NCBI RefSeq assembly: GCF_030817015.1
Contig: NZ_JAUSYS010000001.1
Coordinates: 2,108,001 to 2,172,000 of the forward strand
DNA length: 64,000 bases
Origin: Arthrobacter sp. V1I7
Lineage (GTDB): Bacteria > Actinomycetota > Actinomycetes > Actinomycetales > Micrococcaceae
Direction: 5' to 3'
Shown: positions 21,024-63,812 of the stretch, in pieces
Numbering within the stretch: the first letter of the stretch is position 1
Layout: each line of letters starts with the position of its first letter
Notes under the pieces: generated by a model
Told to the model about the DNA's origin: nothing
What the model saw: the letters and a program-made list of their open reading frames with translations, nothing else
Databases searched by the model: none
Made by a program: the position numbers and the translations under genes

Positions 21024-22288
21024 TGCTCCGGCCCCTGGCGGTCCTGGCGCTGTTCGCGACTGGCGAACTGCGCTTCATAGAGATCGGTGTAAAGCCCGCG
21101 CCCCGCCAGCAGCTGGTGATGGGTGCCGTGTTCAACAATCCGTCCGTGGTCCATGACCAGAATTAGATCAGCGTCCCGGACGGTGGACAAGCGGTGGGCA
21201 ATCACGAAGCTCGTCCGGCCGTGCCGGAGGCGCTGCATCGCCTTGCGGATCTGCACCTCTGTGCGGCTGTCCACGGAGCTGGTGGCCTCATCCAGGACCA
21301 GGATGCTGCGCCCTGCCAGATGCGCCCTCGCGATTGAAACGAGCTGCCGCTGCCCCCGGCTGAGGGAGTCGCCGTCGTTGCCGAGCATGGTGGCGTACCC
21401 GTCCGGCAGCGAGCGGACGAACCGGTCCGCGTGGCTGGCCTGCGCGGCGGCGAGGATCTCGGACTCGCTGGCACCCGGCCGTCCGTACTCGATGTTCTCC
21501 CGGATGGTGCCGGTGAACAGCCACGCGTCCTGCAGGACGGCGCCGACGGCGGAGCGCAGCTCGTCGTGGGGCATGCCCGCAATGTCGGTGCCGTCGAGCC
21601 TGATCCGTCCGGCGTCCAGTTCATAGAACCGCATGAGCAGGTTCGCCACGGTCGTCTTGCCGGCGCCGGTGTGGCCCACGACCGCAACGGTCTGCCCCGG
21701 CTCCACGGTGAAGGTGAGATCCTGCACCGCTGGTGTACCCGGGCGGTAGCTGAAGCCGACCTGCTCGAAGGCGATTCGCCCCCTGGCTCCCGGCGTCCCG
21801 GGTTCGGACGTTCCGGGTTCCGGCGTCGCGGGTTCCCGCGTGCCGGGTTCCCGCGTGCCGGGTTCCGGCGTGCCGGGTTCCCGGGCGGGCCCAGGCAGCG
21901 GCCCGGCCGTAACCTCGGCGGCGTCCAGCAGGGCGAAGACCCGGTCGGCCGAGGCCAGGCAGGACTGCAGAAGTGTCAGCATTCCGCCGACCTGGCCCAT
22001 CGGCTGACTGAAAAGCCGGCTGAACTGGATGAAGGCCTGCAGACCCCCGATCGTCATGGCCCCGGCCGTGACCTGGAGGGCACCGACGACGGCGACCGCG
22101 ACGTAGTTGAGGTTGGAGACGAACACCATCAACGGCTGCACCACGCCCGAAACGTACTGGGCGCGGGCGCTGGCCCGGCTGAGCCTCCTGTTGCTCCCGC
22201 TGAATGCGGCCGCCACGGCGACCTGCCGGCCGAACGCCTTGATGACCTCATGCCCGGTGAAGACTTCCTCCAACTGCGCATGCAGCTC
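21020..22288 (-). pseudogene. ABC exporter subunit 2, 3' part (end of membrane domain and ATPase domain), frameshifted
   Basis: This is the downstream reading frame of one half-transporter gene (21020-23045). It continues from 'LHAQLEEVFTGHEVIKAFG' in coupling helix 2 through the last membrane helices to a complete ATPase domain: Walker A VGHTGAGKTT, signature LSRGQRQLVSIARA, Walker B SILVLDEATSS, H-loop IAHRLS. The upstream frame stops at 22248; deletion of one C in the run 22288-22291 explains the break. The linker between membrane and ATPase domains contains a repeated EPGT(R/P) peptide. If the frameshift is real the protein is lost; if it is a sequencing error the gene is intact. Confidence 0.8.
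21788..21882 (-). repeat. 15-bp tandem repeat encoding the EPGT-type linker
   Basis: About six imperfect copies of a 15-bp unit (core CCGGGTTCC on the plus strand) encode P-G-T-x-E repeats between the membrane and ATPase domains of the ABC subunit. The period is a multiple of three, so copy-number change keeps the frame. Confidence 0.75.
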
Positions 22289-36394: not shown

Positions 36395-36770
36395 GTGCAC
36401 CCCCGGGGGACATGCCCCATGCTCCCCTCGACCGCTGGACACAGTGCCCAAGTGCCCATTCTTCGAGCCCAGGACTGGGCATGTCCTCCCGTGATTCCTG
36501 CCAGGGGCATGTCCTCCGGGGCCACGCCCGCGGCATGGACATGCCCAGCCTTGGGCCATGCCGCTGGGCATAGACCCATGGTGCCCATTCCCCGGACCCA
36601 GGACTGGACATGTCCCCCCCGTAGGTCCCACACCCGTGGCATGGACATGCCCAGCCTTGGGCCACGCCGCTGGGCATAGACCCATGGTGCCCATTCCCCG
36701 GACCCAGGACTGGACATGTCCCCCCGTGATTCCTCCCAGGACTGGACATGTCCTCCCGAGTTCCGCGAGG
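36395..36770. repeat. Palindromic repeat array A (GGACATGYCC family)
   Basis: A gene-free stretch between two convergent genes. It contains two near-identical tandem units of about 106 bp (for example TAGACCCATGGTGCCCATTC at 36571 and 36677) plus diverged partial units. The units are rich in GGACATGTCC, a perfect 10-bp palindrome, and its variant GGACATGCCC/GGGCATGTCC. The 18-mer CCAGGACTGGGCATGTCC at 36469-36486 recurs, reverse-complemented, in every unit of array B about 23 kb away. Open frames through it are repetitive and not credible as genes. Confidence 0.85.
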
Positions 36771-36868: not shown

Positions 36869-38344
36869 TTAGTTGCCGGTCAGCTTCTCGCGCAGTGCTG
36901 CAAGAGCCTCGTCCGAAGCAAGCGTGCCTGCACCGGTCTCGGTTGCAGCCGGCTCGGAGGAGTAGCTGGTGGTGCCGGAGTCGCTCTCGCCGGACGTTGC
37001 AGCTGCAGCGTCGTCGGCAGCGTGCTGGGCAACCTGCTTCTTGTGTGCTTCCCAGCGGGTCTGGGCGTCAGCGTACTGCTGCTCCCAGACGGCGCGCTGC
37101 GTCTCGTAGCCTTCAAGCCACTCGTTGGACTCCGGGTCGAAGCCCTCCGGGTACTTGTAGTTGCCTTCTTCGTCGTACTCAGCGGCCATGCCGTAGAGAG
37201 CCGGATCGAATTCGGTGCTCTCAGCGTCAACGCCCTCGTTAGCCTGCTTGAGGGAGAGGGAGATGCGGCGACGCTCGAGGTCGATGTCGATGACCTTGAC
37301 GAACAGCTCGTCACCAACGGACACAACCTGCTCGGCCAGCTCAACGTGGCGGACTGCGAGCTCGGAGATGTGGACCAGGCCTTCGATGCCGTCTTCAACG
37401 CGGACGAACGCGCCGAACGGAACCAGCTTGGTGACCTTACCCGGAACAACCTGCCCGAGGGCGTGGGTGCGGGCGAAGGTCTGCCACGGATCTTCCTGCG
37501 TAGCCTTGAGCGACAGGGAAACACGCTCGCGGTCCAGGTCGACCTCGAGAACCTCGACGGTGACTTCCTGGCCGACTTCGACAACCTCGGACGGGTGGTC
37601 GATGTGCTTCCAGGACAGCTCGGAAACGTGTACCAGGCCGTCTACGCCGCCCAGGTCCACGAAGGCACCGAAGTTGACGATGGAGGAAACGACGCCGGGA
37701 CGAACCTGGCCCTTTTCCAGCTTGTTGAGGAACGTGGAGCGGACCTCGGACTGGGTCTGTTCGAGCCAGGCACGGCGGGACAGCACAACGTTGTTGCGGT
37801 TCTTGTCCAGCTCGATGATCTTGGCTTCGATCTGCTGACCGATGTACGGAGCAAGGTCGCGCACACGGCGCATCTCGACGAGGGATGCGGGCAGGAAGCC
37901 GCGCAGACCGATGTCGAGGATAAGACCACCCTTGACAACCTCGATGACGGTACCGGTGACAACACCGTCTTCTTCCTTGACCTTCTCGATGTCGCCCCAG
38001 GCACGCTCGTACTGAGCACGCTTCTTGGAGAGGATCAGGCGGCCTTCTTTGTCTTCCTTGGTGAGCACCAGGGCTTCGACCAGATCGCCGACGGAGACGA
38101 CGTCTCCGGGATCAACATCGTGTTTGATGGAAAGCTCACGGGAGGGAATGACACCTTCGGTCTTGTAACCGATGTCGAGCAGAACTTCATCGCGGTCAAC
38201 CTTGACGACGGTACCTTCGACGAGATCTCCGTCGTTGAAGTACTTGATGGTGGCGTCGACTGCTGCGAGGAAGTCCTCAGCGGTACCGATGTCGTTAATG
38301 GCGACTACGGGGGTACCGGGCTTCTCGGTGGAGGTGATGGTCAT
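36869..38344 (-). CDS. rpsA: 30S ribosomal protein S1
   Basis: The 491-residue protein has four S1 RNA-binding domains: starting near residues 35 (GDLVEGTVVKVDRDEVLLDIG), 120, 205 (GQVRPGVVSSIVNFGAFVDLG) and 290 (GQVVPGKVTKLVPFGAFVRVEDG), the compact actinobacterial form. An acidic, Ala/Ser-rich tail of about 110 residues contains 'DPALYGMAAEYDEEGNYKYPEGFDPE', a conserved actinobacterial C-terminal motif. S1 binds mRNA 5' regions and aids initiation. It has its own consensus promoter and a strong terminator, and is transcribed alone. Confidence 0.97.
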   Translation of the reverse strand: MTITSTEKPGTPVVAINDIGTAEDFLAAVDATIKYFNDGDLVEGTVVKVDRDEVLLDIGYKTEGVIPSRELSIKHDVDPGDVVSVGDLVEALVLTKEDKEGRLILSKKRAQYERAWGDIEKVKEEDGVVTGTVIEVVKGGLILDIGLRGFLPASLVEMRRVRDLAPYIGQQIEAKIIELDKNRNNVVLSRRAWLEQTQSEVRSTFLNKLEKGQVRPGVVSSIVNFGAFVDLGGVDGLVHVSELSWKHIDHPSEVVEVGQEVTVEVLEVDLDRERVSLSLKATQEDPWQTFARTHALGQVVPGKVTKLVPFGAFVRVEDGIEGLVHISELAVRHVELAEQVVSVGDELFVKVIDIDLERRRISLSLKQANEGVDAESTEFDPALYGMAAEYDEEGNYKYPEGFDPESNEWLEGYETQRAVWEQQYADAQTRWEAHKKQVAQHAADDAAAATSGESDSGTTSYSSEPAATETGAGTLASDEALAALREKLTGN

Positions 38345-49317: not shown

Positions 49318-52300
49318 CTAGAGCGCCGATCCGGTCGTGAACGTCCACGTCCGGGTGGTCAGCGGGTTGCCGGCCGTATCCCGGACAGCAGCCGTGCCAC
49401 CCGTGATCTGGACGCGGTACTGGGTGCCTGCGGCCAGGGTTGCGGACGGGTTGATCGTCAGCACCCTGGTCAGGGGGTTGAAGGTGAGCGCCGAGGTTAC
49501 GACCGCACCGCTGGCGACATTCGTGATCTGCACTGTACTGGTTGAGAACCCCGTGATGATCTCACTGAAGGTCGCCGTGACGTTGCTGTTCCGCGGGACA
49601 GCTGTGACAGCCGACGTCGCCGTGACCGTTGGCGCCGGACCGGTGAGGAACGACCAACTGCTCGCCGCCATCGTGTTGCCCGCTGCGTCGCGGATTCCGG
49701 AGGCGGTAGCCGTGTACGTCCGGTCGGCAAGCAGCGTCGCGGTCGGGTTCAAGGTAGCAACCCGGGTCGTGGCGTTGTAGGACACGACGGCGGGAATCAC
49801 CGTCGTGTCGAGCCGAAGCACGATGTTGGTGCTGTTGACTCCGGTCACCGGTTCGCTGAAGGTTGCCGTGACGTCGGCTACCTGGCTCACCGAACGGGCG
49901 CCCGTTGCCGGGGTCCGCGCCGTTATCGTCGGAAGCACAAACTCCGCGCGGGGGGTCACAAACAGCAACGTTGTAGCCGAAGCTGCTCCGGTGCCGGCCG
50001 CATTGATGGCTGCCACGTCGAACCTGTAGGAGTTCCCATTGGTGAGTCCGGTGACCACTGCGCTGCCGACGTTGCCGGTGACCGTCTGGGTCCTGGACAG
50101 CGTCGTTCCGGCGTAAGCCCGCACCCGGTAACCCGTGATCGCCGAACCGCCGTTGGAGGCCGGGGCGGTCCATCTCACGGTTGCCGAAGCGACCCCGGCC
50201 GTGGCCGTCCCGATGGTCGGAGCCCCGGGGACGGTCACCGGCGTTGCCGGTGCTGCCGGCGTTGCCGGGTTAGAAGCAGCCGAGGCAGCTCCCGTACCGA
50301 CGCCGTTGGTGGCGGCGACGTCGAACGTGTACGCCGTGCCGTTGGTGAGCCCGGTGACCACGACGGTGCCTACGTTTCCGGTCACCGTCTGGGTCCTGGC
50401 CACCGTGGTGCCCGCGAAGGCGCGCACCTGGTAGCCGGTGATCGCCGAACCGCCGTTGGAGGCCGGTGCGGTCCAGGTCAGGGTTGCCGAAGCGTTCCCG
50501 GCCGTTGCCGAACCGATGGTCGGGGCTCCGGCGAGGGTCGCCGGCCTCACCTGGTTGGAGGCCGCCGAGGCCGCCCCCACGCCCACCGCGTTCACCGCGG
50601 CCACGTCAAAGGTGTACGCCGTGCCGTTGGAGAGCGCCGTGACTACGACGGTCCCTACGTTCCCGGTGACCTCCTGGGTCCTGACCACCGTGGTGCCCGC
50701 GAGGGCGCGCACTCGGTACCCGGTGATCGCCGAACCGCCGTTGGAGGCCGGGGCGGTCCAGGTCAGGGTTGCCGAAGCGTTCCCGGCCGTTGCGGTACCG
50801 ATGGTCGGGGCTCCGGCGAGGGCCGCCGGCGTTGCCGGATTGGAAGCAGCCGAGGCAGCTCCTGTGCCGGCTCCGTTGATGGCTGCGACGTCGAACGTGT
50901 ACGCCGTGCCGTTGGTGAGCCCGGTGACTAGGACGGTACTGATGTTTCCGGTGACCGCCTGGGTCCTGACGAGCGTTGTGCCGGCAAAGGCCCGCACACT
51001 GTAACCGGTGATCGTCGAACCGCCATTGGAGGCCGGGGCCGTCCAGGTCAGGGTTGCCGAAGCGTCCCCGGCCGTGGCTGTACCGATGGTCGGGGCCCCG
51101 GCGAGGGCCACCGGTGTGGCGAGGTTGGAAGCAGCCGAGGCCGCTCCCGTCCCCACGGCGTTGATGGCGGCCACATCGAACGTGTACGCCGTGCCGTTGG
51201 TGAGCCCGGTGACCAGGACGGTGCCGACGTTTCCGGTGACCGTCTGGGTAGCGGCCACCGTTGTGCCGGCGAAGGCCTGCACCCGGTAGCCGGTGATCGG
51301 GGATCCGCCGTCAGAGGCGGGAGCGGTCCAGGTCAGGGTTGCCGAAGCATTCCCTGCCGTCGCCGTTCCGATCGCCGGGGCCCCGGGGGCCGTCGCCTCG
51401 GCCAGCAGCGACGGCGTCACTGCGTTGGAAGCGGCGGAGAAAGGGCTGGTTCCGTGGTCGTTGGTAGCGGCTACCTGGAACTTATAGGTGGAACCATTGT
51501 TCAGGCCGGCTACCACCAGGCTGGTGGCGTCAGCTGGCGCGGTCCGTGGCGTGCCAACTTCGACACCGGCCGGGTCCGTCGTGACGTCCAACACCCTCAC
51601 GGAGAAGCTGTTGGCGGTACCGACGGTCGGAGCCGTAAAGTTGACCGTTGCCCGGCCGTTGCCGGCCGTTGCGGTGCCGATGGCCGGTGCGTTGGGAGCA
51701 ACGCTGTCGGAGAACTGGAGTACCTCGACATTGCGGAGGGTATCCGTACCATCGATGCCTGCCCCGTTGTGGACCACCGTGGTGACCGACCCGGGCGAGC
51801 CGAGGGCGGCGTCGACAGGGGTCGTGGTGACCGTGTAGTTCGCCCGGACATCCGAGAAGACCGCCGTGTCGGTTCCGCCGGAGCCGGTCAGGATCTCCCG
51901 GACGGCCACGATGTTTCCAGGGTCGACGGTGCCGGCAAAGACAGCTTCCTGGAGCGTCGGCCCGGTCAGTGCACCGTCGCCGTCACGAAGGTACTGCGTG
52001 GTCATTCCCGTGGCACTGCCGATCTCGGTCGCCGCGACGGCGGCGTCCGTCCGAACACTCAGGCGGACATTGAAGTAGGCGTCACCGTCGATGATGTCGT
52101 CGAAGCCGCGTCCCTCCATCAGGTCGCTGCCGCCACCGCCGAGGAGGATGTTGCCATCGCCCCAGACGTTCGGACCGCTCAGGAGCGGGCAGTCGTTCGA
52201 TGCCGACGCCGCAACTACGGAACCCAGCGGAGTGTTCAACGGCGGCACCAGTGCGTCGAGGCCGGCGATGCGGTCAAGGCCTGCCTGGTCCAGCACATCG

Positions 52301-54843
52301 CACCCGATGAACCCGCCGCCGCCTACGGCCTTGGGATCCAAGTCGTCGCCACGGAGCGTGTCATTCAGACCCGCGCCGGACAGCGCCTCAACCTCGTTGA
52401 ACTTGTCGCGGACACCGGCCTGCAGGATGTCCAGCGGAGCGATCGGGAGGGCCAGGTCAGCATCCTGTGGCTGTGGGTCACCCTGACCGATCTCCCAGTC
52501 GTAGCCCGAGGCTCCGGCGACCTTCTCGACGCCCGGACCGGCAACACCGACGTCGTCGCCGCCTTCCATGTCGTAGTCGTCGTCACCGCCCTGGCCGATC
52601 AGGATGTCGTGTCCGGGCTTCTGGGAGTCGTCCAGGAAGAACAGGTTGCTGCTGTCCCCGATCATGAGGTCAGGTTGGTCCCCGCCCTCTTCCCAGTCGT
52701 CGCCGCTGTCGCCGAAGGCGGCATCGATACCTTGACCGAGGCTAATGAAGTCGTCGCCCACCCCACCGAAGGTCTCGTTGGCGTTGGCACCACCGTTCGT
52801 GAAGTCCTTGCCATCGCCACCCATGATGATGTCGAGGCCCGGGCCGGCGTTGATGGCGTCGTTACCGGGACCGCCCTTGTGCACGTCGTCGCCGGCAAGG
52901 TCGGTGATGATGTCATTGCCTTCGCCGCCGAGTGCGACGTCGGCTCCGTCACCACCTTCGATGATGTCGTTGCCGAGTCCACCCCAGAAGGTGTCGCTGT
53001 CGTTTCCACCGGAGACGCGGTCGACGCCGGCAGTGCCGTTGTAGACGCTCTGTCCGTTGATCCCGGAGGGATCGATGGTGTTCCTCGCACGATACTTGAT
53101 CGTGCCGTCAGGCATGCGGATCAGCAGATCCGGCTCGCTGCATTCCGAATCCGGGTCGTCTGCAACCCTGTTGCCGCCGGAGTCAATAAAGCCCTGGGCA
53201 GTCCCCGCCAGCTTTTTCAGCTCGAACTTGCAGTCCGCCGTGGCGAACGCATCGGCCTTCAGAGTATGCGCGTTTGTGTTGCGCATCATCAGCTCGGCGA
53301 ACGAGTTGCCCTCGAGTTGCGTCCTCAGGTTCATGCCCGGGGTGCGCGCGAGATAGTAGAGGCGGTCGCCGTTCTGAAGGTCCGTGAGTTGGTTCTCGAA
53401 CACGTAGTTGAAGGTGCTTCCCAGCAGGCCACCGAACACAACCGTCTGCTCCGCGAGTCCGCCGATCCAGAGGTCGACGTTGTCCAGGCCGGTAACCGAC
53501 TTGGTGCCGTCGTTGGCCCAGGGGCCGATGCTGTTCATGAAGTCGGCAGCATCAGCAGGAGCAACGTCCCCGGCTGTGACATCAGGGCTGACAATCGCCC
53601 GTGCAGCCGCCCGCCGAGAGGCCAGGGTTGCCGGACCGTCGTCGGGAGTTCCCACGGTGACATCCGGACCGGCGTCCGTGAGGATCGTCGGGTGCTGTCC
53701 GTAGGCCGCGACGAAGTTGACGAGTGACTCAGGGTGCTTGATTCCCTCCCCGAAATCGATCCAGTTGGTGTAGGGCTTCAGCTGCCCGTCGTTTGTCGCG
53801 TTGAACAGCTCCCGCCGAAGTGCATTCAACCGCGGGACGCCCTCGGACCGGGCCCGCGTCATGTTGATCGTTGCCAGGTCCAGCGGCAGGCCCAGCAGGT
53901 TGTTGCGCAGCGTCTCGGTCACGAACTCATCGAGTTCGTTACCGACCTGATCGGACATGCCCATGATGATGCTGCCCGCAGCCTCCTCGGAGGTGAGCGG
54001 ACCGGCAGGGCCGCCGTCGGTGTACTCCGGAGGGTTGAGGAACCCCTCGAGCAAGGAGACGTCGTTCTTAGTCCCCAAGATGTCGTCGGACGTGCCGAAC
54101 TGGTCGTCGCCGCCGGGCCTGTCCTCGTTTCTGCGGTCGATCGTCTCGGTCAGCATGGAGTGGCCGAAGCGGTACACCGCGTGCGCAAACTCGGCCTTGA
54201 CCGCCGGGTTGAGCTCCGTCTGAGTGAACGCAAACGGCTCGAAGGGGTTGATCGCCGGCTGGATCTTGCGGGCGAACTCCTCGAACACGAGGTGCTGGTA
54301 CTCCATCTCGGTGATGAACCGTGCCGCCTGGAAGAGGCGCTCACCGTTCCAGTCGGCCGCGCCCGCTGCCGACTGCCATTCGGCCAGGGCAGCTACCCCG
54401 CGATCTGAGGTGTCGGTGGTCAGCACCCTCTTGATGTCGTCGACGAGCCGGTCGTGCTCCGAGTGGAACACCTGGTGGATTGCCGTCAGGCCGATGTTCT
54501 CGTTGACGCGCCCGTCACCGGCGGCGAAGTGGGCGTCGAGCATCTCGTTGTCGTATGTGCCTGCGGGCTGGTTGGCGAAATCTGCCGAGGCCGATTCATC
54601 GATATCGGGAGTCAGGCAACCGGCCGGGTCCCGAGGCTCGACATCGGTAGCAGTGAGGCAGGGCTTGCCCGGGTCGGCGTTGTGCGCGATGTCTGTCAGG
54701 AAGGGCGTTTCGAAGTACTTCACGTCGGTGGGAACCTTCACGGGGAAGGCAAGGTTGCCTTCCACCAATCCGTGCCCCGTGACGTACTGCGGCAGTCCGT
54801 TGTCGCCGGGGATGAAATTCCCGTACGCGTCGGCAGCGATCAT
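49318..54843 (-). CDS. Giant secreted haem peroxidase/RTX/Fn3 protein, main part (frameshifted from its N-terminus)
   Basis: The 1841-residue frame starts in mid-domain (MIAADAYGNFIPGDNG) and holds most of an animal-type haem peroxidase domain: proximal His in 'FAHAVYRFGHSMLTETI' near residue 235, 'LDLATINMTRARSEGVPRLNALRREL' near residue 325. It continues with hemolysin-type calcium-binding repeats (GGxGxD, residues ~600-790), more RTX-like units near 900, six fibronectin-III repeats (~1047-1630) and two SbsA/Big_5-type Ig-like domains to the end. Such proteins are secreted and calcium-stabilised. The first peroxidase part is in the upstream frame (54840-56072); a lost base in the G-run 54845-54847 joins them. 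Confidence 0.85.
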   Translation of the reverse strand: MIAADAYGNFIPGDNGLPQYVTGHGLVEGNLAFPVKVPTDVKYFETPFLTDIAHNADPGKPCLTATDVEPRDPAGCLTPDIDESASADFANQPAGTYDNEMLDAHFAAGDGRVNENIGLTAIHQVFHSEHDRLVDDIKRVLTTDTSDRGVAALAEWQSAAGAADWNGERLFQAARFITEMEYQHLVFEEFARKIQPAINPFEPFAFTQTELNPAVKAEFAHAVYRFGHSMLTETIDRRNEDRPGGDDQFGTSDDILGTKNDVSLLEGFLNPPEYTDGGPAGPLTSEEAAGSIIMGMSDQVGNELDEFVTETLRNNLLGLPLDLATINMTRARSEGVPRLNALRRELFNATNDGQLKPYTNWIDFGEGIKHPESLVNFVAAYGQHPTILTDAGPDVTVGTPDDGPATLASRRAAARAIVSPDVTAGDVAPADAADFMNSIGPWANDGTKSVTGLDNVDLWIGGLAEQTVVFGGLLGSTFNYVFENQLTDLQNGDRLYYLARTPGMNLRTQLEGNSFAELMMRNTNAHTLKADAFATADCKFELKKLAGTAQGFIDSGGNRVADDPDSECSEPDLLIRMPDGTIKYRARNTIDPSGINGQSVYNGTAGVDRVSGGNDSDTFWGGLGNDIIEGGDGADVALGGEGNDIITDLAGDDVHKGGPGNDAINAGPGLDIIMGGDGKDFTNGGANANETFGGVGDDFISLGQGIDAAFGDSGDDWEEGGDQPDLMIGDSSNLFFLDDSQKPGHDILIGQGGDDDYDMEGGDDVGVAGPGVEKVAGASGYDWEIGQGDPQPQDADLALPIAPLDILQAGVRDKFNEVEALSGAGLNDTLRGDDLDPKAVGGGGFIGCDVLDQAGLDRIAGLDALVPPLNTPLGSVVAASASNDCPLLSGPNVWGDGNILLGGGGSDLMEGRGFDDIIDGDAYFNVRLSVRTDAAVAATEIGSATGMTTQYLRDGDGALTGPTLQEAVFAGTVDPGNIVAVREILTGSGGTDTAVFSDVRANYTVTTTPVDAALGSPGSVTTVVHNGAGIDGTDTLRNVEVLQFSDSVAPNAPAIGTATAGNGRATVNFTAPTVGTANSFSVRVLDVTTDPAGVEVGTPRTAPADATSLVVAGLNNGSTYKFQVAATNDHGTSPFSAASNAVTPSLLAEATAPGAPAIGTATAGNASATLTWTAPASDGGSPITGYRVQAFAGTTVAATQTVTGNVGTVLVTGLTNGTAYTFDVAAINAVGTGAASAASNLATPVALAGAPTIGTATAGDASATLTWTAPASNGGSTITGYSVRAFAGTTLVRTQAVTGNISTVLVTGLTNGTAYTFDVAAINGAGTGAASAASNPATPAALAGAPTIGTATAGNASATLTWTAPASNGGSAITGYRVRALAGTTVVRTQEVTGNVGTVVVTALSNGTAYTFDVAAVNAVGVGAASAASNQVRPATLAGAPTIGSATAGNASATLTWTAPASNGGSAITGYQVRAFAGTTVARTQTVTGNVGTVVVTGLTNGTAYTFDVAATNGVGTGAASAASNPATPAAPATPVTVPGAPTIGTATAGVASATVRWTAPASNGGSAITGYRVRAYAGTTLSRTQTVTGNVGSAVVTGLTNGNSYRFDVAAINAAGTGAASATTLLFVTPRAEFVLPTITARTPATGARSVSQVADVTATFSEPVTGVNSTNIVLRLDTTVIPAVVSYNATTRVATLNPTATLLADRTYTATASGIRDAAGNTMAASSWSFLTGPAPTVTATSAVTAVPRNSNVTATFSEIITGFSTSTVQITNVASGAVVTSALTFNPLTRVLTINPSATLAAGTQYRVQITGGTAAVRDTAGNPLTTRTWTFTTGSAL
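49955..51705 (-). repeat. Six fibronectin-III repeats, the last five nearly identical
   Basis: The units are about 290 bp long. Conserved peptide landmarks recur in each: APxIGTATAG, LTWTAPASNGGS, ITGYxVxAFAGTT, GLTNGTAYTFDVAA. The first unit is divergent and lacks most landmarks. DNA between units is highly similar, for example the block around 50153, 50454, 50742 and 51030. Confidence 0.9.
52475..53045 (-). repeat. RTX calcium-binding nonapeptide repeats
   Basis: Tandem GGxGxDxxx-type nonapeptides (GGLGNDIIEGGDGADVALGG and following) forming a parallel beta-roll that binds Ca2+. A shorter RTX-like group (LGGGGSDLMEGRGFDDIIDG) occurs separately near 52075-52150. Confidence 0.88.
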
Positions 54844-59149: not shown

Positions 59150-60130
59150 CTCCGCGGGACATGCCCCACCGGGGTCACCTGCTACCCCGCGGGACATGCC
59201 CAGTCCTGGCCGCGGGCACTGGACATATTGCCAACTTGTCCATCCGCCGCGGTGAAGGGAGGGCATGTCCCACGGGGGTGACTTGCTGCTCCATGGGACA
59301 CACCTAACCAGGGTCACCTCCTACTCCGCGGGACATGCCCAGTCCTGGCCGCGGGCACTGGACATATTGCCAACATGTCCATCCGCCGCGGTGAAGGGAG
59401 GGCATGTCCCACGGAGGTGACTTGCTGCTCCATGGACACGCCCAACCAGGGTCATCTGCTACCCCGCGGGACATGCCCAGTCTTGGCCACGGGCACTGGA
59501 CATATTGCCAACATGTCCATCCGCCGCGGTGAAGGGCGGGCATGTCCCACGGAGGTGACTTGCTGCTCCATGGGACACCTAACCAGGGTCACCTGCTACC
59601 CCAGGGGACATGCCCAGTCCTGGCCGCGGGCACTGGACATATTGCCAACATGTCCATCCGCCGCGGTGAAGAAAGGGCATGCCCACGGAGGTGACTTGCT
59701 GCTCCATGGGACACGCCCAACCAGGGTCATCTGCTACCCACGGGGGACATGCCCAGTCCCGGCCGCGGGCACTGGACATATTGCCAACATGTCCATCCGC
59801 CGCGGTGAAGGGCGGGCATGTCCCACGGAGGTGACTTGCTGCTCCATGGGACACCTAACCAGGGTCACCTGCTACCCCAGGGGACATGCCCAGTCCTGGC
59901 CGCGGGCACTGGACATATTGCCAACATGTCCATCCGCCGCGGTGAAGAAAGGGCATGCCCAACCAGGGTCACCTGCTACCCCAGGGGACATGCCCAGTCC
60001 TGGCCGCGGGCACTGGACATATTGCCAACATGTCCATCCGCCGCGGTGAAGGGAGGGCATGTCCCACGAGGTGACTTGCTACTCAGTGGACATGCCCCAC
60101 CAGGTCACCCGCTACTTCACGGGACATGCC
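59150..60130. repeat. Palindromic tandem repeat array B (seven ~138-bp units)
   Basis: Seven copies of a unit with periods of 139, 138, 137, 139, 137 and 104 bases (measured at CATATTG: 59224, 59363, 59501, 59638, 59777, 59914, 60018). Each full unit is a nested palindrome: outer arms GGGACATGCCC and GGGCATGTCCC, inner hairpin TGGACAT-ATTGCCAAC-ATGTCCA, then a second stem AGGTGAC...GTCACCT. Changing period length breaks any reading frame, so repetitive ORFs here are not genes. The array fills the gap between the convergent YdeP-like and DUF6457 genes. Confidence 0.92.
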
Positions 60131-60152
60131 CAGTCCTGGCCGGCTAGTGCGG

Positions 60153-60734: not shown

Positions 60735-63700
60735 ATGACAGCCACACAGCACGGGGATTGCATGGGGCCGGAAATCACCGGCCTCGTGCGGCCCCGACTG
60801 ATCCCCGCCGGTGAAGGCACGTCCAACACGCGGCTTGGGCTCGTGATTGCACCGCCTGGCACCGGGAAAACCACTCTCCTGGCGCACTGGGCGGCGCGGC
60901 GGTCCACCACCGTGGCGTGGTACCGATCGAGTCCGGGTGACTCAAAGCCGGGCCGGATGCTGGCACGATTCGCCAGCGCCCTGGCCTCGGCCCTCGATGA
61001 GGAATTTCCCCGCACTTTTCCTGAGCTGGAGCTCTTGGCCCGGCGGCTGGACGAGCCGCTCGTCTTCGTCGTGGATGATCTGCATGCCCTGGCCCACACC
61101 TCCGCGGAGTCGGAGCTCGAGCGACTTCTCACACTCAACTCACCGCTGGTGTACTTCCTGGTGGGCAGCCGCCGCCCCCCATTCTTCAATTTGGCCAGGT
61201 CGGAGCTGCCTGCTGCAGTGACTGTTTGCGGGGACGACTTGCGCTTTCGCCCCAGCGAAGTCGACCAGCTCTTCCGGACCACTTACAAACAACCACTGAC
61301 TTCCGCAGGCGCCCTGAACCTGACCCTGAGGACGGACGGATGGGCCGCGGCGCTGCACCTCTTCCACCTCGCGACAAAGAACCGATCCTCCGTTGAACGG
61401 CGGCGGGCAGCGGAGTCCTTCGGCCCGGCGTCCCGCCATGTCCAGGATTACCTGACACACCATTTCCTGGCCGGAGTCTCCGAGGACATGGAACTGCTGC
61501 TGCGCCGCAGCTGCCTTTTCGACGTGCTGACACCCTCCCGTTGCGACGCACTTCTTGAGGGCAGCGACAGCCGGCCGCTGCTGCACCGCCTTGAGCAGCT
61601 CGGAGTACTTTCGAGAGAGGACGACGGCGCTACGCTGCGGGTCCCGGAATTGCTTCGGCAGTACCTCGTCGCCACCGTTGACGCGCGGCACGCAGACCGG
61701 GACGGCGGCACCCTGGAGCGCACAGCCACGATCCTCGAACGGGAAGGCGCCTTCGGACCGGCGTTGGGCGTGCTGGCCCAAGGCAAGGACTGGGGCAAGG
61801 TGCGCAACCTTCTGCAAAGGGCGCGGAAAAATGCGGTGCAGCCTGGGGCGTGCGGATGGGCAGCCCTGATTCCTGCCCCGCTGCTGCGGGAGGATGCCGG
61901 GTATGCCGTCGCCGCGGCGCGGCAGTTGCTCGACGACGGTTGCCTGGCAGCCGCCCACAGGACCGCTGCGGAGGTCCCGGCACTGACGAGCGATCCCGAG
62001 TGGCTGGCACTGGCCCTGGACCTTCAGCTGACGGCCGCGCGATGGGGCGGGAACGCAGGTGTCGAGGGCCCGGGTCCGGCCGGCAGCCTGCGGGAAGCGG
62101 CCCGTGGGAACCCCGGCAGAGCGGCCCGGTCCATGCGCGTCCCCTACCGGCCGCAGGAATTGCTGGCGCAGGGTTTGTCCTTTCTCCTCGGCGGTGATCA
62201 ACGCTCTGCCCTCGATCGACTGCGGCAGTGTACCGGGCGGCTCGCCGACGAACCGGGGCCCGCACTGGCGGCCCAGCTTGCGCTTGCCGTTTTTGGGCCG
62301 GAAACATCTGCTTGGGACCTGGACGCTCCTGCCGCGGAAGTGGACGCCGTGCAGCGGCAGGCTGAACGGCGCGGATTCACATGGCTGGCGCGCCTGGCCC
62401 GGGGAGTCCAAGCCGCGCTCTCCGGAACCTCCAGTTGCCAGGAGTCCGTCCGCTCCATCGTCGACAGCTGCCAGCAGCGAGGTGACGAGTGGGGTGCGGC
62501 GCTCGTCGCTGCCGCCGCTGCCCTGATGCGGTTGCGGGCGGGTCGCCCTGACGTGCGGGGGTTCGAGGCACTGGCAGGGCGTTTCCGCAGGCTCGATGCT
62601 GGCGCACTGGAAGCCTGGGCACAGTCGGCACAGGCGCTGGTCAGTGCCACGCTTGACCTGCCGGGAGCCGCTGAGGAGGCGCGAACTGCGGAAGCATTTG
62701 CCCGGGCGGCGGGAGTGCCCGGAGCGCATGCGGTCGCCTACGCCGCTATGGCACTGCAGTGGCCGGAGCACCATGGCGAACTTATGTGTGCGGCCCGCGA
62801 AACCGGTGCCTCTGCGGGCTTGATGTGCCGTCCATGGACATGGATAGCACCCGAACCGCGCGCCCGGGCGAGCCAACGCGCCCTGACGCAAGTTTCGGCA
62901 ATCGGCCCTGCGGATTCTGCCGGCCGGACCCCGGGTGGCACCGCCGTGGAGGTAGTGGCCGGTGCGCCCCAGCCATCCCTGCAGGTGGGCTGCTTCGGCG
63001 GATTCACGCTCCGCAACGACGGGGCCGCCGTGGATCTGTCCAGAGTGCGGCCCCAGGCCAGGACCGTGCTCCGGATCCTCTCACTCAACGCCGGCCGGCC
63101 GGTGCACCGGGAACGGCTTGCGGGCATCCTGTGGGCAGACTTGGACACCCCCGCAGCACTCCATGCCCTGCAGGTGAGCGTATCCAGTCTTCGCGGTGCC
63201 CTCCAGACCGGGTGCCAGGCGGAGGGCCAGCAGCTCCTCGTTCGGCAGGGTGAGGCCTATGCCCTCGTGCTCGCCAGCGGATCGGCCTTCGATCTGGCGG
63301 ATTTTGACCAGACCCTGCATGCTGCCTCGCGGGCACGGTCCGTGGGAGACCACCCCAGCGCCGCCGAAGAGCTCCGCCGCGCCCTCGAGCTGTATACCGG
63401 TGAGGTGCTCCCGGAAGACGGGCCGGCGGAGTGGGTTGCCGACACCCGGGAGAGGTACCGCCTGCGGGCCGCCGAAGCTGCGGCGTCGCTTGCCGGTCTT
63501 GAACTCGTTTTGGGGAACCCTGCCAATGCGGCCGCCGCCGCGACCCGGAGTGTCGAGATCGATCCCTGGCGGGACGAATCCTGGCGGACCCTGGTCGAGA
63601 CATTCCGCCGTCTCGGCGATCCGGCCGCCGCGGAACGCGCGCAAAGGCGTTACGAGCTCATCCTCAACTCCTTGGGGGTACCAGCTTCATCTGGGCCTTT

Positions 63701-63812
63701 AGGCCCGGCTGAGCCTTTAGGCCAGGCGTCGGGCATCGCTACCGGCCGGCGAACTGGACCTCCGCTACAGACACGCGTGCCCCCGCCGGACCCTTCGATT
63801 CCAGGATATTGA
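60735..63812 (+). CDS. STAND-type ATPase transcriptional regulator with C-terminal SARP/BTAD domain
   Basis: The 1025-residue protein has an N-terminal NTPase of the MalT/LAL or AfsR-like STAND class: Walker A APPGTGKTTL near residue 40 and Walker B LVFVVDDLHAL near residue 112. A long helical middle (about 250-720) resembles TPR-type sensor repeats. The C-terminus, from about residue 749, is a SARP-type winged-helix DNA-binding domain (LQVGCFGGFTLRNDGAAV, 'RLAGILWADLDTPAALHALQVSVSSLR') followed by a bacterial transcriptional activation (BTAD) domain to about 1000. Usual SARP regulators carry the DNA-binding domain first, so the order here is reversed. Inducer and targets are unknown. Confidence 0.88.
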   Translation: MTATQHGDCMGPEITGLVRPRLIPAGEGTSNTRLGLVIAPPGTGKTTLLAHWAARRSTTVAWYRSSPGDSKPGRMLARFASALASALDEEFPRTFPELELLARRLDEPLVFVVDDLHALAHTSAESELERLLTLNSPLVYFLVGSRRPPFFNLARSELPAAVTVCGDDLRFRPSEVDQLFRTTYKQPLTSAGALNLTLRTDGWAAALHLFHLATKNRSSVERRRAAESFGPASRHVQDYLTHHFLAGVSEDMELLLRRSCLFDVLTPSRCDALLEGSDSRPLLHRLEQLGVLSREDDGATLRVPELLRQYLVATVDARHADRDGGTLERTATILEREGAFGPALGVLAQGKDWGKVRNLLQRARKNAVQPGACGWAALIPAPLLREDAGYAVAAARQLLDDGCLAAAHRTAAEVPALTSDPEWLALALDLQLTAARWGGNAGVEGPGPAGSLREAARGNPGRAARSMRVPYRPQELLAQGLSFLLGGDQRSALDRLRQCTGRLADEPGPALAAQLALAVFGPETSAWDLDAPAAEVDAVQRQAERRGFTWLARLARGVQAALSGTSSCQESVRSIVDSCQQRGDEWGAALVAAAAALMRLRAGRPDVRGFEALAGRFRRLDAGALEAWAQSAQALVSATLDLPGAAEEARTAEAFARAAGVPGAHAVAYAAMALQWPEHHGELMCAARETGASAGLMCRPWTWIAPEPRARASQRALTQVSAIGPADSAGRTPGGTAVEVVAGAPQPSLQVGCFGGFTLRNDGAAVDLSRVRPQARTVLRILSLNAGRPVHRERLAGILWADLDTPAALHALQVSVSSLRGALQTGCQAEGQQLLVRQGEAYALVLASGSAFDLADFDQTLHAASRARSVGDHPSAAEELRRALELYTGEVLPEDGPAEWVADTRERYRLRAAEAAASLAGLELVLGNPANAAAAATRSVEIDPWRDESWRTLVETFRRLGDPAAAERAQRRYELILNSLGVPASSGPLGPAEPLGQASGIATGRRTGPPLQTRVPPPDPSIPGY

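Follow-up and report, generated by a model that had tools for sequence, protein, structure and literature searches.

Array B lies between two convergent genes in a 64,000-nucleotide stretch of the genome of Arthrobacter sp. V1I7 (contig NZ_JAUSYS010000001.1, positions 2,108,001 to 2,172,000), referred to here as the window. It is a tandem array of nested palindromes, and this work concerns the repeat family to which it belongs and a nuclease gene that is bracketed by the same motifs. The left neighbour of the array is a molybdopterin oxidoreductase gene (PF00384, PF01568; 56664..59147, plus strand) and the right neighbour is a gene for a DUF6457 protein (PF20058; 60153..60470, minus strand). 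Measured against a 132-nt reference, the array comprises seven tandem copies (59164-60089), spaced at 139, 138, 137, 139, 137 and 104, and a recount matched exactly the first-pass annotation, which had described seven nested-palindrome copies with these spacings between convergent genes. Tandem Repeats Finder reports periods of 139 and 276 across 59156-59961. The outer pair of the unit, GGGACATGCCC/GGGCATGTCCC, was confirmed in the letters, and both the inner TGGACAT-9 nt-ATGTCCA hairpin and a GGTGAC/GTCACC stem are present. This stem is restricted to array B and lies outside the module that is kept at other loci.

That module is 79 bp long and has three palindromes. Module 1 is located at 59192..59270 (plus strand) and modules 2-7 start at 59331, 59469, 59606, 59745, 59882 and 59986. 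The right-hand motif is GGGCATGCCC in two of the seven copies (59675, 59951). An extra single motif, GGACATGCCC, stands upstream of module 1 (59157..59166) and two more stand past the last module (60088-60097 and 60122-60131), so that the array with its extra motifs covers 59157-60131. Rfam gave no match to the unit at the gathering threshold and five weak matches to miRNA families (E 0.07-0.33).

The number of modules at this place differs among genomes and can be 0, 1, 2, 3 or 7. Among 12 genomes with a DUF6457 orthologue, motifs lie between the orthologous neighbours in eight, are absent in three and are unresolved in one. At two of these places (L264 in G374 and L267 in G373) the array is missing and an ordinary GC-rich terminator-like hairpin is found in the convergent gap. 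DUF6457 itself was considered as a factor linked to the repeats and rejected. Its identity is at least 84% in 11 clade I genomes (the gene is split in G377), but clade II genomes that carry the repeats have 50% or less, and it is therefore a clade marker and not a factor.

The module, its constraint and its placement

The conserved core, defined from 20 fetched stretches and the window, is GGRCATGYCC-18-TGGRCATA-N7-TATGYCCA-18-GGRCATGYCC, three palindromes at fixed spacing. In the whole genome (a 4.87-Mb contig and a second contig) GGACATGYCC has 261 matches (144 + 117) and its reversed control has 20 (11 + 9), which excludes chance. BLAST with one 93-nt unit returned 98 matches at E of 1 or less, and those listed are all on the large contig. 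When 526 distinct pairs of neighbouring motifs no more than 150 bp apart were measured, 167 were at exactly 69 bp, with further peaks at 32 bp (80 pairs), 29 bp (56) and 22-23 bp (26). In the module profile, read by eye, half-sites are set as inverted pairs 3 bp apart (columns 4-17/21-34 and 44-57/61-74), with 9 bp between the two pairs. The module has a slight directionality, its aligned total being 5921.7 as against a mean of 5873.6 (standard deviation 7.1) for 10 nulls. The oriented profile of 71 modules has no conserved GTAG/CGTC tetranucleotide inside the module or within 10 bp of it.

A second array of the same family, array A, is also present in the window between convergent genes, with modules at 36408, 36537 and 36643 and single motifs (36408..36753). 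It lies on the 3' side of a minus-strand gene (36869..38344) that we take to be rpsA, encoding ribosomal protein S1; the name comes from recognition of the sequence and not from a family search. The same holds for the names rpsA, typA, fdxA, clpB and purD given to genes that flank arrays. Of 17 positive genomes, 15 have motifs on the 3' side of rpsA; of 13 negatives, none has a module there. In three genomes (L231 in G391, L235 in G289, L237 in G357) the same rpsA 3' region where relatives carry the GGACAT module is occupied by another repeat, AACGCGGGGTCACTTACGGCCC with an inverted partner, which resembles a hairpin and is unrelated to the module. This is probably a second extragenic repeat family.

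The motifs avoid genes. Only 20 of 528 exact motifs are genic, though 80% of the bases are, which agrees with the suggestion of the first-pass annotation that the unit is not under coding selection and goes against random or genic copies. The median distance is 58 bp to a gene 3' end (n=153) and 175 bp to a 5' end (n=87). Of 102 arrays with both neighbours called, 37 are convergent, 57 co-directional and 8 divergent, where 93, 338 and 90 such intervals were available. The convergent excess is significant against divergent (Fisher p 9e-7) and against co-directional intervals (p 7e-6), with the reservations that the loci were chosen by the motif, that orthologous places recur so that the cases are not independent, and that the simple gene caller misses some genes (e.g. 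60735-63812). Within these limits a BIME-like (bacterial interspersed mosaic element) family of extragenic palindromes, as had been proposed, is upheld. The eight divergent arrays did not reveal an autoregulated factor. Their flanks are clpB-like (4), purD-like (2) or unrelated genes, and the four arrays at L040, L121, L136 and L147 lie upstream of the ClpB-like gene at divergent promoters. No bias in chromosome position was detected (Kolmogorov-Smirnov p 0.098), with the origin not located.

The motifs are also better kept than the sequence around them. In 58 between-genome alignments (one per locus pair, drawn from 114 hits with flank identity of 0.50-0.93) the divergence was 0.072 in motif columns, 0.310 in spacers, 0.368 in the centre and 0.196 in flanks, giving a motif/spacer ratio of 0.23 (0.20-0.28), although most of the aligned loci were fetched by the motif, which favours the motif columns. 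When the subjects were fetched by the RpsA protein instead, the divergence was 0.086 in motifs and 0.360 in spacers for 15 pairs, not all of them orthologous, one of them identical, and with queries still chosen by the motif.

It had been suggested that selection acts on structure or protein binding, and selection on a folded structure was not supported. A single unit folds better than its shuffles (z -4.6 as RNA, -3.8 as DNA), but this would be expected from nested palindromes alone. Among 71 modules kept as non-redundant out of 196, pairing of the spacer arms about the central dyad is not above shuffles (sum z -0.3, 18 pairs), with one arm pair depleted (z -4.0) and one raised (z 3.0), and pairing about the side dyads is not above shuffles either (sums -7.1 and -1.8). 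The mean fold energy of 92 non-redundant modules is -40.07, as against -39.60 for chimeras with swapped spacers (z -1.2) and -36.73 for shuffled spacers; one arm pair again stands out in the swap test (z 3.2). Arm pairing is mixed among the spacing classes, with sum z of 3.6 at 22 bp (8 cases) and 2.6 at 23 bp (10), and of -4.8 at 29 bp (36) and -7.7 at 32 bp (44). There may be a weak structural tendency near the module centre, since a minority of modules has extended complementary arms. The roughly fourfold faster divergence of spacers than of motifs, together with the lack of covariation between paired arms, makes double-stranded DNA the probable target rather than a hairpin.

Distribution and dispersal

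The unit is not confined to array B, and copies are found across the genome and in many congeners. With one mismatch allowed, the outer-pair pattern matches 36 of 395 genomes of the family. Within the genus 17 of 77 genomes have 6-62 copies, four have one and the rest none, and in other genera of the family 15 genomes have 1-2 copies. The inner pattern occurs at 7-45 copies in 33 of 121 genomes of the genus, once in five and in no others. The core is thus all-or-none within the genus, at either 0-1 or at least 7 copies per genome (121 genomes). Across the order the full pattern matches 2 of 297 genomes, both among the eight of the same genus, and none of the 289 sampled outside it. Presence of the module requires three changes on a tree of 30 genomes built from rpsA. 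As regards the gyrase-binding or nucleoid-protein role put forward in the first-pass annotation, a universal enzyme would not readily account for genomes of a single genus having either many copies or hardly any.

Named records with the module (80 loci of at least 120) belong to Arthrobacter species, Pseudarthrobacter oxydans and one Ramlibacter-labelled metagenome bin, whose contig with an Arthrobacter-type module (L133, JAQGMS010000365.1) is probably mis-binned. Carriage by phages or viruses was considered, and viral_contigs gave no exact match. No named family with this unit was found, as the first-pass annotation had stated, and searches of the open-access literature turned up nothing that ties palindromic repeats of this type to Arthrobacter. 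A published table of repetitive extragenic palindromic (REP) sequences names Arthrobacter livingstonensis (PMC12306157).

The module itself seems to disperse, in the manner of a REPIN (an inverted doublet of REP sequences). For the best match at another locus, mean spacer identity is 0.682 in the module's own genome and 0.619 in other genomes (25 loci with 57 modules against equal-sized samples, a comparison made without a significance test), and eight cross-locus pairs of modules in the own genome reach 0.7. In four inspected pairs, 0.01-2.9 Mb apart, the homology spans the module, extends at most about 25 bp into the adjoining sequence and ends there. Since distant pairs are alike over little more than the module, the module looks like the unit of copying, as REPINs are. 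Gene conversion would give the same pattern.

The AbiEi-Vsr-type nuclease and its bracketing motifs

Among the genes beside arrays, one family of 269-aa proteins was noticed because motifs bracket it on both sides in six loci; other gene families beside arrays were not screened individually for bracketing. The protein matches PF13338 (AbiEi_4) above the cut-off (27.9-30.1 against 25 in all three orthologues scanned) and PF18741 (REase_MTES_1575) below it. Predicted residues 1-163 resemble AbiEi (6y8q, E 7.8e-6). Residues 166-266 match folds of the Vsr type (also labelled EDxHD), which are PD-(D/E)XK-like, and acidic and His residues of the catalytic type are invariant. PADLOC models match the nuclease weakly (AbiEi best E 1.9e-7, Hhe 3e-6), NCBIfam gives only a fragmentary Hhe match, and a search by sequence against the PDB gives no match. 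In the genome of the window the gene (G000:C1:1011232-1012032) lies outside the window, at a distance of about 1.1 Mb.

All 37 orthologue loci, among them those of G377 and G357 where the gene is broken, have motifs no more than 400 bp away on each side of the gene. The same was seen for 13 of 308 genes in loci that had themselves been selected by the motif, and some of the 13 may be the nuclease gene. In 32 of the 37 a full module (no more than 6 mismatches of 36) stands at a distance of up to 600 bp on each side. The median distance from the gene to the nearest motif is 70 bp on one side and 62 bp on the other. G106 and G427 likewise have motifs on each side, at distances of up to 1.5 kb. 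At the three loci checked (L044, L108, L110) the gene caller placed no further gene between the bracketing modules, and no DUF1814 search was made there.

The module and the gene also occur together. With orthologues taken at 69% identity or more, and G427 counted on a partial match, 30 of 121 genomes have modules and an orthologue, three (G421, G423, G444) have modules only, two have an orthologue only and 86 have neither (Fisher p 1e-22, kinship ignored), which means that 30 of 33 module-rich genomes carry the orthologue. Of the two with an orthologue only, G364 holds arrays of a 68-bp variant, and in G106 the gene is bracketed by a variant, GAGCATGTCC. The co-occurrence has no phylogenetic significance by itself, since there are only two or three independent pairs on the tree.

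A different palindrome accompanies divergent homologues. In 15 module-negative genomes a homologue of 47-56% identity lies at the nuclease locus, and its flanks show TGYGCASGGRCWGTCCSTGCRCA (motif 2), clearly in some and weakly in others. Motif 2 has 2-11 copies in all 15 of these genomes and two or more copies in 4 of 106 others, where the counts include the sites beside the nuclease gene. Fusions of an AbiEi winged helix with a Vsr-type domain are found in 119 of 121 genomes of the genus, with 1-6 matches each. Repeats common to both flanks have a median of 36 bp in 20 distant paralogues and 18 bp in 184 controls (p 1e-5); in 13 of the 15 homologues of the 50% class the median is 30 bp (p 0.013). 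Distant paralogues (L339 in G009, L340 in G465, L369-L388) often have repeats in both flanks, for example TTTCTGCACCGC, CAGCTGTCCCA, GGGGCAC/GACACGGACACGCC and CTGGCCCAGTTTT.

The window has two further repeats. Tandem repeats of about 285-303 bp at 50039-51386, in a long predicted gene (49318-54843, minus strand), are probably repeated protein domains, and a 15-bp tandem repeat of CCGGCGTGCCGGGTT units lies at 21781-21883 in a predicted gene.

Interpretation and comparison with known systems

Array B is best explained as a local tandem expansion of a non-coding REPIN-like element that is recognised as double-stranded DNA, with a fusion of an AbiEi winged helix-turn-helix and a Vsr/EDxHD-type nuclease as its most likely reader. 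We give this explanation a probability of roughly 0.6. It draws on the computed anatomy of the module, the constraint on its motifs, the extragenic placement, the all-or-none distribution, the short shared homology, the bracketing of the gene and the association of divergent homologues with another palindrome. We infer that the protein binds the motif and cuts, that cutting drives the spread of the module and that the protein has no other main role. In such a mechanism the winged helix would bind GGRCAT half-sites set as inverted pairs, and the nuclease domain would nick or cut at or near the element. Repair would then insert copies of the module at extragenic positions that tolerate them, for the most part close to gene 3' ends, or would lengthen arrays in tandem.

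Several observations weigh against this explanation. Modules occur without an intact orthologue in G421, G423, G444 and G309; G423 retains a fragment of 59 residues, the gene of G444 is 83% complete and G427 has only a partial match. Within the set of 30 genomes, G309 lacks the gene and G357 and G377 have it in broken form, the three having 8, 11 and 18 outer pairs, and the rpsA tree contains only two or three independent changes in presence. Bracketing may be one ancient event that was retained, because the 37 bracketed genes are orthologous and syntenic. Neither a target-site duplication nor a clean empty site was found, and at the array B place the gaps of G373, G374 and G383 differ too much for a junction to be made out. 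Among the matches listed, motif 2 lies on both sides of the gene in 4 of the 15 genomes and on one side in seven; in the others it is recognised at most on inspection by eye. Only 5 of 20 paralogues and 2 of 13 homologues of the 50% class exceed the 95% point of the controls. Only one subfamily shows amplification across the genome, the copy number of motif 2 being low (2-11). A general class of RAYT-independent, non-transposase systems (RAYT, REP-associated tyrosine transposase), a 'nuclease-REP' class in which each fusion subfamily is bracketed by and mobilises its own palindrome and one has been amplified to dozens of modules, is a tentative idea and somewhat doubtful.

It is also conceivable, but unlikely, that the modules are arrays of binding sites with a role in chromosome architecture or as a transcription roadblock at 3' ends, where the AbiEi-Vsr protein or another protein holds convergent boundaries and the spread is incidental. 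The constraint on the motifs, the convergent and 3'-end placement (58 bp against 175 bp on the 5' side), the discrete spacing classes and the places kept across species, such as the rpsA 3' side, all suit this role. The all-or-none distribution in one genus and the turnover in copy number at the array B place suit a mobile element better, distant copies are alike over little beyond the module, and the nuclease domain would be left unexplained.

The motifs could also be operators that control the nuclease gene, or marks by which a restriction-like defence system tells self DNA, with the copies in the genome serving in titration or protection. AbiEi is known as an autorepressor that binds inverted repeats 3 bp apart (PMC7319586). 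The closeness of the nearest motifs to both sides of the gene and the weak PADLOC matches to AbiEi and Hhe point the same way. This is nonetheless quite improbable, as motifs flank the gene on both sides, beyond the promoter, and many copies lie near gene 3' ends far from it.

Bidirectional intrinsic terminators acting as RNA hairpins would account for the convergent placement and for the folding of the unit and the worse folding of shuffled spacers. Some gaps with a single module have 8-17 bp to spare on each side of it, and another terminator-like site is present in none of eight one-module convergent gaps below 160 bp, whereas 13 of 40 gaps of 40-160 bp without a module have one. The arms do not covary, however, and the stability is like that of spacer-swapped chimeras. 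There is no consistent T-tract, and the module supplies a terminator-like site in only 4 of 42 convergent module intervals. On the rpsA 3' side, separate terminator-like sites lie outside the modules in 6 of 7 intervals, and overall such sites occur in 12 of 42 as against 24 of 58 (p 0.21), which is no significant difference. We regard termination as very improbable. The reading as a classical REP/REPIN mobilised by an HUH transposase (RAYT), although it has the same anatomy of extragenic inverted palindrome doublets and tandem arrays, is contradicted by the absence of PF01797 from 34 genomes (17 positive), where the model detected it in 5 of 14 controls, and by the oriented profile without a conserved GTAG tag, provided that the transposase has not diverged beyond the reach of the model.

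The likenesses to known systems are partial. The AbiEi antitoxins and type IV regulators share the predicted fold of residues 1-163, but here this part is fused to a nuclease-like domain, its presumed sites are dispersed genome-wide, and no further gene was called beside it between the bracketing modules at the three loci checked. The fold and the invariant acidic and His residues of residues 166-266 are shared with EDxHD/Vsr-type nucleases, including the homing endonuclease I-Bth0305I, whereas the partner here is a short repeat and the nuclease activity is predicted. Miniature inverted-repeat transposable elements (MITEs) are likewise short, non-coding inverted-repeat elements between genes. 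They differ in that the spacers of the module turn over at fixed spacing, and no target-site duplication, parental insertion sequence or transposase was seen in tight single-module or empty-site comparisons, which were not a systematic search.

The closest resemblance is to the REP, BIME and REPIN systems with RAYTs. The module family consists of high-copy extragenic palindromes (261 against 20 in the control; 20 of 528 genic) in inverted pairs at 69 bp and in tandem arrays. REPtrons are formed by extragenic palindromes in inverted doublets or tandem arrays and a single-copy enzyme gene near or flanked by the repeats, and repeat and enzyme form cognate pairs (PMC8266576, PMC3733652). The nuclease gene is likewise a single-copy enzyme gene flanked by its own repeats, with a presumed cognate pairing. 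The module family differs in lacking an HUH/Y1 transposase (0 of 34) and a GTAG tag, in giving no indication that a folded strand is under selection and in having an enzyme of unrelated fold. It is not filed as a REPtron because the HUH transposase that defines these systems was not detected, though the two appear to work alike. The best reading of the sequences is a REPtron-like repeat system paired with a nuclease that has an AbiEi reader and is unrelated to RAYTs. It looks like a repeat system that spreads by itself and has an enzyme not earlier linked to REP-like repeats, and searches of the open-access literature turned up nothing connecting AbiEi/DUF559 nucleases to dispersed palindromic repeats. 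The system offers a concrete case, with one small protein, one 79-bp target, natural presence and absence, and broken and variant-motif examples, and the sister subfamily with a different palindrome allows specificity to be compared. If this reading is true, the enzymes behind bacterial repeats would come to include a homing-type nuclease whose DNA reader is a repurposed antitoxin, and a meaning would be given to proteins named 'type IV toxin-antitoxin system AbiEi family antitoxin domain-containing protein'.
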